Assembly (NCBI RefSeq): GCF_019966595.1 | Contig: NZ_JAINFJ010000005.1 | Location: 277,924-341,923, forward strand | Reading direction: 5' to 3' | Length of the DNA: 64,000 bases | Source of the DNA: Oricola indica | GTDB lineage: Bacteria > Pseudomonadota > Alphaproteobacteria > Rhizobiales > Rhizobiaceae | Shown here: positions 10,979-19,661 of the stretch, in pieces | Position numbering within the stretch: the first letter of the stretch is position 1 | How the letters are laid out: the number at the start of each line of letters is the position of its first letter | Position numbers and translations under genes: made by a program | Notes under the pieces: generated by a model | What the model was told of the DNA's origin: nothing | What the model saw: only the letters and a program-made list of their open reading frames with translations | Database searches by the model: none

Positions 10979-12104
10979 GCCGTCCGTCTCGATTGCCAGT
11001 TCCCGCGACATCGCCATCATAGGCGGCGGAATCGTCGGCCTTTGGACTGCATTCCTCGCCGCGCGGCAAGGGCTTTCGGTCACCCTGCTGGAGAAACGAA
11101 CCATCGGCGCGGGCGCCAGCGGCGGCCTGCTTGGCGCGCTGATGCCGCATCAACCGACCGGCTGGAACGCCAAGAAGCAATTTCAGCTCGACGGTCTTCT
11201 GTCGCTGGAAGCTGAGATCGAGGCTATCGAAAGCCTGACCGGCATGCGGGCCGGGTATCGGCGCTGCGGCCGTCTTATGCCGATCCGCCACGCGGAAAAA
11301 CGCCGGCTGAGCGAGCAATGGGTGCAAGCATCGCAGGAAAGCTGGCCCGCGCCATTTCGATGGCAGGTGACGGACCAGACACCCGATCCGGGCTGGCTGC
11401 CGCAAGATCAGATGCAACACGGCGCCAATATCGACAGCCTGTCGGCCCGGGTCGATCCACGCGCGCTTGTCGCAGCGCTCCATAAGGCCGTCGCCCTGTC
11501 CGGTATCCAAATCCTGGAGAATACCGAAGTCAGTTCGGTCGAGAACGGCGCGATTACCCTGACAGACGGCTCTGTTCTCGCGGCAGGCCGCTCGATCTTG
11601 ACGGCCGGATGGGAGAGTTTTGGCCTGATCGACAGCCTGTCCGGTCGGGGTGTGAAGGGACAGGCGGCGCTGCTTCGCCCAGCCCGGCCCGTGGATCCGT
11701 CGGCGCCGATCCTCTACGACAACGGCACCTATGTCATCGCGCACGAAAACGGCCTTGTCGCCATTGGTTCGACCTCGGAAAACGAGTTCGACGACACCGC
11801 CTCGACCGATGAAAAGCTGGAGGCTGTCATCGCGCATGCCATGGAGATCTGTCCGGCTCTCGAAAACGCAGAGATCATCGAACGATGGGCGGGCATCCGT
11901 CCTCGCGCCGACGGGCGGGAGCCGCTGGTCGGGCCCCTGCCCGGCCGTGACGACCTCCTTGTCGCGACCGGCGGTTTCAAGATCAGCTTCGCCATCGCAC
12001 ATCTGATGGCCAGGGCCGCCCTGATGCAGGCTTGCAGCAAGACACCCAACTTTCTGCCGGACCTGTTCCTGCCGGAAAACCGTCTCAAGCCTCGCTCTGG
12101 CTGA
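10977..12104 (+). CDS. FAD-dependent oxidoreductase equivalent to the MnmC oxidase half
   Basis: A 375-residue DAO-type flavoenzyme. The FAD-binding motif IAIIGGGIVGLWTAFLAARQG is at residues 12-32, followed by the ribose-binding EK; further DAO-fold features are GAGASGGLLGALMPHQ, VDPRALVAAL and the C-terminal WAGIRPRADGREPLVGPLPG. Its place beside mnmD suggests it is the partner that removes the carboxymethyl group from cmnm5U34, as the second half of fused MnmC does. The start codon lies in a CATG palindrome shared with mnmD. The 3-prime end overlaps the photolyase gene by 20 bp. Confidence 0.82.
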   Translation: MPSVSIASSRDIAIIGGGIVGLWTAFLAARQGLSVTLLEKRTIGAGASGGLLGALMPHQPTGWNAKKQFQLDGLLSLEAEIEAIESLTGMRAGYRRCGRLMPIRHAEKRRLSEQWVQASQESWPAPFRWQVTDQTPDPGWLPQDQMQHGANIDSLSARVDPRALVAALHKAVALSGIQILENTEVSSVENGAITLTDGSVLAAGRSILTAGWESFGLIDSLSGRGVKGQAALLRPARPVDPSAPILYDNGTYVIAHENGLVAIGSTSENEFDDTASTDEKLEAVIAHAMEICPALENAEIIERWAGIRPRADGREPLVGPLPGRDDLLVATGGFKISFAIAHLMARAALMQACSKTPNFLPDLFLPENRLKPRSG

Positions 12105-13623
12105 GCGCGCGGAAGAAACGCCGGCTATCCTCGCCGATAGCATCAATCCTGTCTTCGCCCATCTTGTCGAGCGATGTGTAGATCATCCGCATGCGAAGGT
12201 TGTTCCGAAATCGCGGACGGTTCCCGATCAGGAAATTCCAGTAAAGGTAGTTGAACGGACACGCCTTTTCGCCGTTCTTGCGTTTGACCGAGTAGCGGCA
12301 TTTGCCGCAATAATCCGACATCCGGTCGATATAGGCTCCGGACGCGGCATAGGGCTTGGAAGCAACCAACCCGCCATCGGCATGCAGGATCATGCCGACG
12401 ACATTCGGCATCTCCACCCACTCATAGGCGTCGTGATAGACGGCCATATACCAGTCCTGAACCTGTTTGGGGTCGAGGCCGGCGAGAAGCGCGAAATTAC
12501 CGATCACCATCAGCCGCTGGATATGATGCGCATAGGCGTTGTCCAGCGTCTCGGTGATTGCCTGGCGCATGCAGTTCATCTGCGTCTCGCCGGACCAGAA
12601 GTACTCCGGCAGGTCGCGTGTCGCGTCGAGGGCATTCTCCTGCCCATACTCCGGCATCTTCAGCCAGTAGATGCCTCTTATGTACTCCCGCCACCCGATA
12701 ACTTGCCGGACGAAGCCCTCGACCGCATTCAAAGGCGCATCACCGTCATTCCAGGCGGCGATCGCCTTCTCGCAACATTCGCGCGGGTCGAGAAGCCCGC
12801 AATTGATCAGGGCCGAAAGATGCGAATGGTAGAGCAGCGGCTCGCCCTGCTTCATCGCGTCCTGATAGCGCCCGAATTCCGGAAGCGCCTCCGTGACAAA
12901 CCAGTTCAGGTAATGCATCGCCTGCCGGCGGGTCACGGGATAGTTGAACGGCTCGAGCCTGCCGATGTGATCGCCGAACGATCCGTCCACCAGGTCCAGG
13001 ACATCCCGCGTGATATCGTCCACCGCGTAGTGCGGACGTTCGGGAATCGTCGCATCCTCCGGCAGCGGCTCGCGATTGTCCTTGTCGTAGTTCCACTGCC
13101 CGCCTTCGGGGCCGCCATTGGCGTCCATCAGGTAACCGGTCTTTCGACGCATCTCCCGATAGAAATACTCCATGCGCAATTCCTTGCGCCCAGAAGCCCA
13201 GTCAGCGAACTCCGACGCCGTCGCGATGAAGCGCTCATCCGGCCTGAGATCCAGTTCGATGCCCGGTTCGTCCGCCCATGCGCGCTGCATTTCGAGAACG
13301 CGGTACTCAGCGCCCTCGGTGGCGATGACGGTCGAGATGTCGTGCTTCCGGATCGCCTGCCGCAGCGCGTCTGTCAGCGACCGGACATCGCCATCCTGGC
13401 CGAAGTGGCGGTATTCGACCTCATAACCATCGCTGCGCAATCCCTCCGCGAAATGGCGCATGGCCGAAAAGAGGAACGCGATTTTCTTCTTGTGGTGGCG
13501 CACATAGGTCGCCTCCTCGGCGACCTCGCACATCAGGACGATATCGTCTTTCTCAAGCCCCTTCAGGCATGAGAGATCGCGGGACAACTGGTCGCCAAGA
13601 ACGAACCGAAGCGTCTTTCCCAT
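12085..13623 (-). CDS. Iron-sulfur bacterial cryptochrome/photolyase (FeS-BCP, PhrB-type (6-4) photolyase)
   Basis: A 512-residue flavoprotein of the FeS-BCP group, whose known member in Agrobacterium (PhrB) repairs (6-4) photoproducts. The opening LRFVLGDQLS is typical of the group. Four cysteines that would hold a 4Fe-4S cluster are present at 351, 439, 442 and 455 (NCMRQA, DYCGKC, KACPF), one residue off the PhrB numbering, and the WYMAVYHDAYEWVEMPNVVGM region binds FAD. A GAAAGGGG ribosome site precedes the ATG. It is a second photolyase besides the class I enzyme at 60 kb. No promoter like that of the other photolyase was seen. Confidence 0.9.
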   Translation of the reverse strand: MGKTLRFVLGDQLSRDLSCLKGLEKDDIVLMCEVAEEATYVRHHKKKIAFLFSAMRHFAEGLRSDGYEVEYRHFGQDGDVRSLTDALRQAIRKHDISTVIATEGAEYRVLEMQRAWADEPGIELDLRPDERFIATASEFADWASGRKELRMEYFYREMRRKTGYLMDANGGPEGGQWNYDKDNREPLPEDATIPERPHYAVDDITRDVLDLVDGSFGDHIGRLEPFNYPVTRRQAMHYLNWFVTEALPEFGRYQDAMKQGEPLLYHSHLSALINCGLLDPRECCEKAIAAWNDGDAPLNAVEGFVRQVIGWREYIRGIYWLKMPEYGQENALDATRDLPEYFWSGETQMNCMRQAITETLDNAYAHHIQRLMVIGNFALLAGLDPKQVQDWYMAVYHDAYEWVEMPNVVGMILHADGGLVASKPYAASGAYIDRMSDYCGKCRYSVKRKNGEKACPFNYLYWNFLIGNRPRFRNNLRMRMIYTSLDKMGEDRIDAIGEDSRRFFRALSQSEA

Positions 13624-17331: not shown

Positions 17332-17376
17332 TGCAATGCACAAAACGCATGGGTGCTATGCAATTTCATCGCTTAT
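17332..17376 (+). promoter_or_regulatory. Palindromic upstream element of the first DUF1127 gene
   Basis: TGCAATGCACAA at 17332-17343 contains the palindrome TGCA-A-TGCA, and GCTTAT lies 39 bp after its start (17371-17376). The same two blocks at exactly the same spacing stand before the second DUF1127 gene, so this is probably a shared operator or promoter. The binding factor is not known; LysR-type VtlR controls DUF1127 genes in Brucella, which makes it one candidate by inference. Confidence 0.5.
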
Positions 17377-17449
17377 TTTTTCAGCACGAAGTGCCTATCT
17401 ACGCGCCATTGCAAGAACAAGAACAGATCATCACGACAAGGACAAGACC

Positions 17450-17596
17450 ATGAACTTCGTACGCTCTTTCTCCGAATGGCGCCGCTACCGTGCAACCTGC
17501 ACCGAGCTCAACAAGCTGACGGCCCGCGAACTGAACGACCTCGGCATCAACCGTGGCGATATCCCGTTCGTCGCGCGCAAAGTCACCCGCGCCTGA
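17450..17596 (+). CDS. DUF1127 mini-protein (CcaF1-like), copy 1
   Basis: A 48-residue basic protein, nearly all DUF1127: MNFVRSFSEWRRYRATC, then ELNKLTARELNDLGINRGDI. It is paralogous to the gene at 17.9 kb. In Rhodobacter, a DUF1127 protein (CcaF1) binds RNA and acts with the CCUCCUCCC-motif sRNAs encoded just downstream; here too a CTCCTCCC hairpin follows. The ATG was chosen by alignment with copy 2; the open frame further upstream falls in the regulatory region. Confidence 0.88.
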   Translation: MNFVRSFSEWRRYRATCTELNKLTARELNDLGINRGDIPFVARKVTRA

Positions 17597-17656
17597 GGCA
17601 TACCACCGAATTCCGTCGGGCCTTCTTTCTCCCGGGCCTGGACGGCGCAGGACGCG

Positions 17657-17684
17657 CGACCCGATCTCCTCCCTCCAGGGGTCG
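17657..17684 (+). ncRNA. Candidate CcsR/cuckoo-type hairpin with CTCCTCCC loop, locus 1
   Basis: A 6-bp stem, CGACCC/GGGTCG, closes a 16-base loop carrying CTCCTCCCTCC, an anti-Shine-Dalgarno sequence. It lies 60 bp after the DUF1127 stop and before a strong terminator, so it is probably processed from the mRNA 3-prime end. Only one such hairpin is clear here, compared with three in locus 2. Confidence 0.55.
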
Positions 17685-17701
17685 CCGCTCCGAATAAAAG
17701 C

Positions 17702-17744
17702 CACCCGCTGCCGGTTACCGGCGGCGGGTGTTTTTTTGACGGTG
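17702..17744 (+). terminator. Rho-independent terminator of DUF1127 locus 1
   Basis: CACCCGCTGCCGG pairs with CCGGCGGCGGGTG around a TTA loop, followed by seven Ts. Confidence 0.9.
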
Positions 17745-17785
17745 CGAAGCGGGCCGCGCAGAATGGTCCATTCGTCCCGCTTTGT

Positions 17786-17830
17786 GCATTGCACAATATG
17801 CATAGCTGCGTTGCAGCATCGACGCTTATC
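17786..17830 (+). promoter_or_regulatory. Palindromic upstream element of the second DUF1127 gene
   Basis: TGCATTGCACAA at 17786-17797, with GCTTAT at 17825-17830. Palindrome, block order and the 39-bp spacing match the element before copy 1, and both end about 110 bp before their start codons. Confidence 0.5.
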
Positions 17831-17908
17831 AAATCGGTTAGAATGACTATCTTGGGGTCACAACAACAAAAACAAAAACACGAACGACCCCAAGCCCACG
17901 AAGTGGAT

Positions 17909-18061
17909 ATGAAAATGAACCTCGTACGCTCTTTCAACGAATGGCGCCGCTACCGCGAGACCAGCCTTGAATTGAAACGCCTCTCCGGCCGCGAGCTGGA
18001 GGACATCGGTTTCGCCCGCGGCGATATCGCCAGCGTCGCCCGCCGCGCAGCCCGCGCCTAA
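17909..18061 (+). CDS. DUF1127 mini-protein (CcaF1-like), copy 2
   Basis: A 50-residue basic DUF1127 protein starting MKMNLVRSFNEWRRYRE and ending RGDIASVARRAARA. About two thirds of its positions match copy 1. An AAGTGGA ribosome site stands 2-8 bases before the first of two close ATGs. Three CCTCCTCCC hairpins follow directly, which is the arrangement of the RSP_6037 (CcaF1)-CcsR1-4 operon of Rhodobacter sphaeroides. A role in RNA binding or sRNA turnover is inferred from that case only. Confidence 0.9.
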   Translation: MKMNLVRSFNEWRRYRETSLELKRLSGRELEDIGFARGDIASVARRAARA

Positions 18062-18080
18062 GACGAAAACAGTTTCCGTC

Positions 18081-18197
18081 AGGGTCTATCCTCCTCCCAG
18101 ACCTTGTCGGTTAAAGGAGCGCAATCCTATCCTCCTCCCAGGATTGTTGCTCCGAAAGTAAGACACCCGCCGCACCTCCTCCCGCGGCGGGTGTTTT
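18081..18197 (+). ncRNA. Array of three CCTCCTCCC-loop hairpins (CcsR/cuckoo RNA-like), locus 2
   Basis: Three stem-loops follow the DUF1127 gene. Hairpin 1 (18081-18105) and hairpin 2 (18122-18146, extended by GGAGC/GCTCC) have the identical loop ATCCTCCTCCC on unrelated stems. Hairpin 3 (18163-18195) has an ACCTCCTCCC loop and doubles as the terminator. Constant loops on changing stems imply selection for exposed anti-Shine-Dalgarno sequence. This matches the CcsR1-4 sRNAs of Rhodobacter, made by RNase E processing and linked to photooxidative stress. Confidence 0.8.
18163..18197 (+). terminator. Terminator of DUF1127 locus 2 with an embedded CCTCCTCCC loop
   Basis: ACACCCGCCGC pairs with GCGGCGGGTGT and is followed by TTTTT. 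The loop ACCTCCTCCC repeats the motif of the two preceding hairpins, so the terminator is itself part of the RNA array. Confidence 0.88.
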
Positions 18198-18239
18198 TCA
18201 TTTCTTGAAGCGTCATCCGCGACGCGTTATCTCCTCGCC

Positions 18240-19661
18240 ATGACAATGCGTCCCATTCATATCGTCGGTGGCGGTCTCGCCGGCTCCGAAGCCGCCTGGC
18301 AGATTGCCGCGCGCGGCATTCCGGTCATCCTTCACGAGATGCGTGGCGTGCGCGGCACCGAGGCGCACAAGACAGACGGCCTCGCCGAACTGGTTTGCTC
18401 AAACTCGTTTCGATCCGACGATTCCGAATACAATGCCGTCGGCCTGATCCATGCCGAGATGCGCATGGCAAATTCCCTCATCATGCGTTCCGCCGATGCC
18501 AATCAGGTGCCGGCCGGCAGCGCGCTGGCGGTCGATCGGGACGGCTTCTCGGATGCGGTGACGGAGGCGATCGCGGCAAACCCGCTGATTACGGTCGTGC
18601 GCGAGGAGATCACCGGCCTCCCGCCAGCCGACTGGGACCTCGCCATCATCGCCACCGGACCGCTGACAGCACCCGGCCTTGCCGATGCCATCGCAGCCGA
18701 AACCGATTCGGATGCCCTCGCCTTTTTCGATGCGATCGCGCCGATCGTCTATTTCGATTCCATCGACATGGACACGGCCTGGTTCCAGTCGCGCTACGAC
18801 AAGGTCGGTCCTGGCGGCACCGGAAAAGACTACATCAACTGCCCGATGGATCGCGATCAATACGAAGCCTTCATCGATGCGCTGATCGCCGGCGACAAGA
18901 CCGAATTCCGCGAATGGGAAGGTACGCCCTATTTCGACGGGTGCCTGCCGATCGAGATCATGGCCGAGCGCGGACGCGAGACGCTGCGCCACGGGCCGAT
19001 GAAGCCGATGGGCCTGACCAACGCGCACAAGCCCGACGAGAAGCCTTATGCCGTCGTGCAGCTTCGCCAGGACAACGCACTCGGCACGCTTTACAACATG
19101 GTCGGGTTCCAGACCAAGCTCCGTTACGGCGCGCAATCGGAGATACTCCGGATGATTCCGGCGCTTGAAAACGCCGAGTTCGCCCGTCTCGGCGGCCTGC
19201 ACCGAAATACCTACCTCAACTCCCCTGTACTGTTGGCCGGAGACCTGCAGTTGAAGAGCCGCAAGGGCCTGCGCTTTGCCGGCCAGATCACCGGTTGCGA
19301 GGGGTATGTGGAATCGGCCGCCATTGGTCTTCTTGCCGGGCGTTTCGCAGCCGCGGACAGGCTGGGTGAACCCGTTCTCCCGCCGCCCGCGACCACTGCC
19401 TTCGGCGCGCTCCTCAACCACATCACCGGCGGTCACATCGTTTCCGACGACGAGAAGAAGCGCTCCTTCCAGCCCATGAACGTGAATTTCGGGCTGTTTC
19501 CGCCGCCGGACGCGGGCGCGATGAAGAAGCCCGAAGGCCATGAGGGCCGTTGGCGCGGCAAGGACAAGGCACTGGCGAAGAAACGCGCCATCACCGAGCG
19601 TGCAAAGCGCGATGCCGCGCAATGGCTGGAAGCTGTCCGCCCGCGCGAAGCTGCGGAATAA
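18240..19661 (+). CDS. trmFO: Methylenetetrahydrofolate-tRNA-(uracil-5-)-methyltransferase
   Basis: A flavoprotein that makes ribothymidine at tRNA position 54 using methylene-THF and FADH2, replacing the SAM-dependent TrmA. The 473 residues open with the FAD motif [16 protein letters not shown] and continue with the TrmFO signatures [37 protein letters not shown] and [19 protein letters not shown]. The two ATGs MTM lie side by side, and either may serve. It is a single gene behind the DUF1127 locus and is separated from it by a terminator. Confidence 0.95.

Follow-up and report, generated by a model that had tools for sequence, protein, structure and literature searches.

Several described systems resemble the locus analysed here. 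The ar14 family corresponds to the NfeR1 RNAs of rhizobia, which possess three hairpins, an ultraconserved CCUCCUCCC and highly differing stems (PMC10746234). NfeR1 acts in trans (PMC7143759), silencing mRNAs via its three loops, and its described targets comprise ntrB and two genes encoding solute-binding proteins (PMC8844928, PMC10746234, PMC7143759). The regulator LsrB, whose motif is given as GCAT-N3-TG-N3-T and TGCA-N6-GCAT (PMC8844928, PMC10746234), binds and activates the NfeR1 promoter (PMC10746234). VtlR/LsrB also activates DUF1127 genes in Brucella (PMC12595884) and atu1667 of A. tumefaciens, the orthologue of two Brucella DUF1127 genes (PMC7486931), i.e. control of DUF1127 genes and control of NfeR1 by this regulator have been published separately (PMC10746234, PMC7486931, PMC12595884).

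The association of a DUF1127 gene with an RNA is likewise in print already, as the CIN1 locus (PMC10253847). In Rhodobacter sphaeroides, the gene for CcaF1, an RNA-binding DUF1127 protein, is followed directly by the RNAs CcsR1-4 (PMC10253847), and a DUF1127 protein has also been reported to bind the kinase PhoR (PMC12501420).

Here, we describe two DUF1127 loci at which, judging from sequence, an LsrB-driven transcript probably gives rise to both a small DUF1127 protein and a tail-derived anti-Shine-Dalgarno (anti-SD) sRNA, the latter being of the ar14 (NfeR1) type at locus 2.

Two DUF1127 genes followed by hairpin arrays

The window, i.e. the whole 64,000-nt stretch of Oricola indica DNA that was analysed, contains a divergent DUF2157 gene, two co-oriented DUF1127 genes and trmFO, in this order. 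Both DUF1127 genes had been named in the original prediction, and both scored above the cut-off of Pfam PF06568. The features of the two loci are:

17450..17596, + strand: DUF1127 gene 1, 48 aa (PF06568, 52.5 bits, cut-off 23.3)
17607..17736, + strand: locus-1 RNA, three hairpins by folding (ar14, 30.1 bits, below the cut-off of 58.8)
17915..18061, + strand: DUF1127 gene 2, 48 aa, with a further in-frame ATG at 17909 (PF06568, 46.7 bits, cut-off 23.3)
18070..18199, + strand: ar14-family anti-SD RNA of locus 2 (RF02344, 92.4 bits, cut-off 58.8)
18076..18110, + strand: locus-2 hairpin 1, loop ATCCTCCTCCC (folding)
18116..18153, + strand: locus-2 hairpin 2, loop ATCCTCCTCCC (folding)
18160..18199, + strand: locus-2 hairpin 3, the terminator, loop with CCTCCTCCC, then a T run (sequence and folding)
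18240..19661, + strand: trmFO (TIGR00137, 519.7 bits), downstream neighbour and synteny anchor, outside the unit

Behind gene 2, CTCCTCC occurs at 18091, 18132 and 18176, in all three cases inside a hairpin loop. Sequence and folding agree with the earlier description of this locus as having three loops, two of them identical and the third belonging to the terminator, since hairpins 1 and 2 carry the same 11-base loop on different stems. At least two CTCCTCC loops arose in 0/1000 dinucleotide shuffles and one in 5/1000, and the folding energy of -62.6 compares with -34.2 +/- 3.6 for such shuffles.

The expectation that CCTCCTCCC-type loops lie behind each gene holds for locus 2 (3/3) and only in part for locus 1, which shows a complete CTCCTCC in a single loop (17666), a degenerate TTCTTTCTCCC in another and no motif in the terminator. 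One CTCCTCC loop was obtained in 1/1000 shuffles of locus 1, and its folding energy is -65.8 vs -54.4 +/- 4.1 in shuffles. Among the matches listed, the named relative closest by TrmFO (89 %) is Oricola nitratireducens, in which locus 2 retains three CTCCTCC and all three loops of locus 1 are CU-rich. Considering the single full loop, the degenerate one, the motif-free terminator and the CU-rich loops of this relative, locus 1 looks like a drifting second copy.

Elsewhere, a DPRP photolyase-related gene is located at 12085-13623 of the window (PF04244, 266.2 bits). A ChrR-like cupin gene lies 2.9 kb beyond the window end (G000:C38:344867-345139; PF12973, 51 bits), and may belong to a remark on ECF11 in the original prediction.

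Family assignment of the RNAs

The loci had been compared with CcaF1-CcsR of R. sphaeroides, and in both cases anti-SD hairpins do stand directly behind the DUF1127 gene, as in CIN1 cuckoo RNAs, to which the RNAs described here are akin in kind. The arrangement by which a CIN1 locus is defined, i.e. a short DUF1127 gene beside a CcsR-like sRNA (PMC10253847), is found in the window. Membership of the CcsR family itself was rejected: the CcsR1 model (RF02791, cut-off 65.3) matched locus 2 with 29.8 and 19.9 bits and locus 1 with 19.7 bits, whereas the Rfam search assigned the locus-2 RNA to ar14 with 92.4 bits against a gathering cut-off of 58.8. The locus-1 RNA, at 30.1 bits, stays below the ar14 cut-off. 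Matches to ar7, CC1840, 6C, anti-hemB, BcKCsr2 and P15 were all below their own cut-offs and were taken as cross-matches.

With NfeR1, the window loci share three hairpins, CCUCCUCCC loops (3/3 at locus 2, 1/3 at locus 1), variable stems and, by sequence, a promoter motif of the LsrB type, TGCA-N6-GCAT, at both loci. They differ in that NfeR1 of S. meliloti is reported to be 123 nt long and transcribed from a promoter of its own (PMC10746234), whereas the box in the window precedes the DUF1127 gene and the locus-2 ar14 match is set apart from the stop codon of gene 2 by 8 bases.

Promoters and LsrB-type boxes

Ahead of each DUF1127 gene, two exact and overlapping forms of the LsrB motif are followed by a putative core promoter:

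17337..17362, + strand: LsrB-type box of locus 1, TGCA-N6-GCAT (17337-17350) overlapping GCAT-N3-TG-N3-TGCA (17347-17362)
17372..17400, + strand: putative -35 CTTATT, N17, -10 CTATCT of locus 1 (heuristic fit)
17790..17815, + strand: LsrB-type box of locus 2, TGCA-N6-GCAT (17790-17803) overlapping GCAT-N3-TG-N3-TGCA (17800-17815)
17825..17852, + strand: putative -35 CTTATC, N16, -10 CTATCT of locus 2 (heuristic fit)

The count of the short form GCAT-N3-TG-N3-T in the window was not significant (9 found vs 7.06 expected), and we therefore relied on the extended box GCAT-N3-TG-N3-TGCA and on its position. The extended form has 14 exact occurrences in the 5.09-Mb genome, three of which have CTCCTCC within 450 nt downstream, i.e. 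the two window loci and a stand-alone RNA (box at C33:576640); at the extended-box site L008, CTCCTCC lies on the other side. The remaining DUF1127 gene of this genome (the third, on C41) has neither an LsrB-type box nor a CTCCTCC array.

DUF1127 genes of relatives were detected by a profile made from the two window proteins, and those with a score of at least 50, a threshold of our choosing, are called SDP-like. Among the matches listed, 42 of 50 SDP-like genes had a form of the box where it was expected, compared with 19 of 2563 control windows of similar length; the place had been fixed after viewing the relatives' loci. Box and array were both present in 20 of the 50. The best -35 lies 24-26 bases from the box in 32/44 boxed promoters, window included.

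These promoters bear on the suggestion, made in the original prediction, that the loci answer photooxidative stress, which leans on the RpoHI/RpoHII promoter described for R. sphaeroides (PMC10253847). An operon of the CcaF1-CcsR type under RpoHI/RpoHII would account for the shared gene order, and the CcsR1 model does reach 29.8 bits at locus 2. However, ar14 fits far better than CcsR1, LsrB-type boxes precede both genes, and a CTTGAA -35 was found in 0/44 boxed promoters, as judged by a heuristic fit of limited range in which the core geometry is near sigma-70 and by itself does not separate sigma-70 from RpoH. We thus regard such a stress operon as improbable.

The boxes agree with the VtlR/LsrB-activated genes of Brucella and with atu1667 in pairing a small DUF1127 gene with the same LysR regulator; in contrast to the window loci, those are presented as protein genes, and the available sections of PMC7486931 and PMC12595884 make no mention of a 3' anti-SD RNA. 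We suggest that each window locus would be transcribed as a single unit yielding a 48-residue DUF1127 protein and, from the 3' tail, an anti-SD RNA, and that LsrB would turn on both promoters, the motif being seen in the sequence and the binding being presumed. As the ar14 match follows the stop codon of gene 2 after an interval of only 8 bases, co-transcription and cutting is the simplest reading, i.e. the locus-2 RNA may be transcribed together with gene 2 and then cut free of the message. The three loops of the free RNA, equivalent to one another, are predicted to pair with GGGAGGAG-type Shine-Dalgarno sites and to block translation, mainly that of uptake and catabolic genes if published studies of NfeR1 and a small screen for targets are taken as a guide. 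Locus 1 would contribute as a second copy with one intact loop, and a third RNA of this type stands by itself downstream of the lsrB-position gene, with a box of its own.

Constant loops and drifting stems

Constant loops on variable stems had been proposed from the window alone, and both the swapping of ar14 arms and loops picked by folding at trmFO loci argue for this pattern. While the inference was right, it had already been published for NfeR1, since the locus-2 RNA is an ar14 member and the same pattern is described in PMC10746234. In 51 ar14 copies at or over the cut-off, from 22 genomes, the mean pairing energy was -18.6 kcal/mol for arms of the same hairpin and -7.4 kcal/mol for arms swapped between arrays. 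Mean pairwise identities in these copies were 0.29, 0.28 and 0.53 for the left arms and 0.31, 0.29 and 0.49 for the right arms of hairpins 1, 2 and 3, respectively. The loop identities (0.90, 0.92 and 0.96) are inflated, because hairpins were chosen by CTCCTCC, which fixes 7 of 9 loop bases, and were set aside as evidence.

The test was repeated blind to the motif: for 61 SDP-like DUF1127 genes from 50 trmFO loci (among the matches listed), the following 170 bases were folded and loops of 7-16 bases collected. In this set, CTCCTCC was contained in 68/114 fold-picked loops vs 2/1420 in shuffles; at least two such loops were present in 24 of the 61 tails vs 0/1220 shuffles, and none in 34 of them.

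These patterns also bear on whether the hairpins serve in cis only, as terminator, mRNA stabilizer or binding site of the DUF1127 protein, with no free sRNA acting in trans. The 8-base distance to the stop codon, the terminator nature of the third hairpin and the RNA binding described for CcaF1 (PMC10253847) would fit such a role. Folding in cis would, however, not in itself need CTCCTCC loops to be kept while stems drift, ar14 copies without a DUF1127 gene exist, and NfeR1 is known to be trans-acting (PMC7143759); a role in cis only is therefore quite unlikely.

Distribution in related genomes

An ar14 match at E 0.001 was found in 46 of 150 genomes of the order, and 22 of the 150 have one over the cut-off. 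Of the 87 places examined, 51 were over the cut-off, and it should be kept in mind that loci and ar14 copies are related, i.e. all counts represent non-independent events. A DUF1127 stop codon lies within 300 nt upstream at 48/87 places and in 32/51 copies over the cut-off, and within 15 nt in 19 of the latter; the DUF1127-linked copies are spread over 18 of the 22 genomes. An exact LsrB motif lies 200-350 nt upstream in only 6 of the 19 DUF1127-adjacent copies over the cut-off, which speaks against a general rule. In three further copies, those of G136, G069 and G105, the motif lies at 443-454 nt, where it precedes both members of a DUF1127 gene pair.

Each of these three genomes has two or three ar14 copies in tandem behind the DUF1127 pair. 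This layout is the one most similar to CcsR1-4, and lends the stress-operon reading discussed above some support. At L107, L108 and L110, the two or three tandem ar14 copies behind two DUF1127 genes are spaced about 175-195 nt from each other and comprise up to nine CTCCTCC.

No DUF1127 gene was present in the stretch examined (up to 650 nt) for 17 of the 51 copies over the cut-off, seven of which have an LsrB-type box 56-117 nt upstream. Such boxed, DUF1127-free copies would be expected if the window sRNA, too, had its own promoter inside the DUF1127 gene, with gene and RNA being merely neighbours. Against this, no exact box is found between 17816 and the locus-2 RNA, the nearest one preceding DUF1127 gene 2, and we give a separate promoter little chance compared with a shared transcript.

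Among the matches listed for trmFO, a DUF1127 gene on the same strand lies within 3.5 kb upstream in 67/80 loci, and an SDP-like one in 50/80. At least two CTCCTCC follow the SDP-like gene within about 180 nt in 24 of these 50 loci and are absent in 26, mostly from Rhizobium, Sinorhizobium/Ensifer and similar records. The keeping of the loops in relatives, which the original prediction had made its touchstone, thus gives a mixed picture, with 24/50 syntenic loci for it and 26/50 against (among the matches listed). Since the array is missing in these 26, the DUF1127 gene and the RNA are separable. Rhizobium- and Sinorhizobium-type trmFO loci (many of L027-L053) have a DUF1127 gene, and often the box, without an anti-SD array, and a second, more distant DUF1127 gene adjoins trmFO.

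The LysR gene in the lsrB position and a third RNA

In this genome, trxB (387.6 bits) is followed by a 298-aa LysR gene (L175:2485-3381), and a position of vtlR directly downstream of trxB has been reported as conserved (PMC7486931). The identity of the protein as LsrB rests on this gene position; no NCBIfam cut-off was reached among the 25 families listed. A homologue at E 1e-60 was found in 139/150 genomes. The protein has a single cysteine, C142, and none at position 273 when matched by residue number, whereas LsrB of A. tumefaciens has four, of which C144 and C273 are conserved and C273 matters for H2O2 resistance (PMC11975290). The signal perceived may differ here.

About 100 bases behind this gene, and with its own box 59 bases upstream (C33:576640), lies a further RNA:

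C33:576699-576830 (L175:3483-3614): third RNA, ar14-like, with three CTCCTCC (ar14, 48.5 bits, below the cut-off)

An anti-SD sRNA behind lsrB is reminiscent of AbcR1/2 (ar15), of which AbcR1 has an LsrB motif (PMC8844928), but the RNA found here is ar14-like (48.5 bits, below the cut-off). No ar15/AbcR match was obtained in this genome in one search whose control was silent, which is hence not proof of absence, nor in a second search, in which ar15 matched in 18/150 genomes of the order. By a count of coordinates, in 14 of these 18 an ar15 match follows the lsrB homologue in the same orientation at a distance of up to 800 nt, and in 5 of the 14 this match is over the ar15 cut-off. An ar14-like match lies within 400 nt behind the lsrB homologue in this genome, G114, G056 and G094, and at 1.2 kb in G093, in all cases below the cut-off; none of these five genomes is among the 18 with an ar15 match. 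At least three CTCCTCC behind the lsrB homologue were found in only two of the five, i.e. this genome and G056. Weak suhB matches, also below the cut-off, lie near the ar14-like match in G093 and G056. That an ar14-like RNA fills the AbcR slot behind lsrB is a lead rather than a result.

Putative targets

The sequence GGGAGGAG occurs 3-11 bases before an ATG at 52 sites of the genome. Thirty of these were taken in contig order, and after dropping L188 and L189 (short frames) and L202 (the same gene as L201), 27 were scanned; for the control site AAAGGAGA, 30 of 40 sites were taken and 20 scanned, with eight short frames, L216 (62 aa) and L240 (143 aa) left out. Transport genes, i.e. TRAP, ABC, solute-binding and sulphur transport, made up 10 of 27 scanned GGGAGGAG genes vs 1 of 20 AAAGGAGA control genes (Fisher p 0.014), where the control proteins were shorter overall, which may bias the comparison, and the transport class was judged by us after viewing the Pfam names. 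Solute-binding proteins taken alone were not significant in these sets (6/27 vs 1/20, p 0.21). AMP-binding enzymes accounted for 4/27 scanned GGGAGGAG genes (L187, L192, L194 and L198), and represent a possible second target class.

The loops resemble the anti-SD sequence of 16S rRNA. Together with the 52 GGGAGGAG sites before start codons, this might indicate a general brake, by which the RNA would titrate many start sites instead of a defined target set. As transport genes are enriched over the control SD-like site, albeit in a small screen, we consider a general brake unlikely and favour uptake genes as the main targets.

Significance

It is tempting to speculate that, in much of the order, ar14/NfeR1 RNAs are mainly 3' tails of DUF1127 genes, many of them run by LsrB, so that one LysR signal would yield a protein and an anti-SD RNA, that the stand-alone NfeR1 would be such a tail with a kept or gained LsrB box, and that in some lineages such an RNA would occupy the AbcR slot behind lsrB; this wider picture is offered tentatively, as a possibility of somewhat less than even standing. 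A literature search found no paper joining NfeR1 or ar14 with both DUF1127 and LsrB, which in the sections available is weak evidence of novelty; NfeR1 and DUF1127 did not occur together in any of the papers listed, and a text search of PMC3927594 gave 0 occurrences of DUF1127 and of anti-Shine. The parts worth testing are the link to LsrB and the origin of ar14 from a tail.

The proposal links three lines of work: the regulation of small DUF1127 genes by LsrB/VtlR, that of NfeR1 by LsrB, and the pairing of DUF1127 genes with cuckoo RNAs in Rhodobacter. If it is true, studies of DUF1127 genes confined to the coding region may have overlooked an sRNA carried by the same message, or deleted it, and the wide effects of the regulator on nutrient uptake would gain a direct RNA route.
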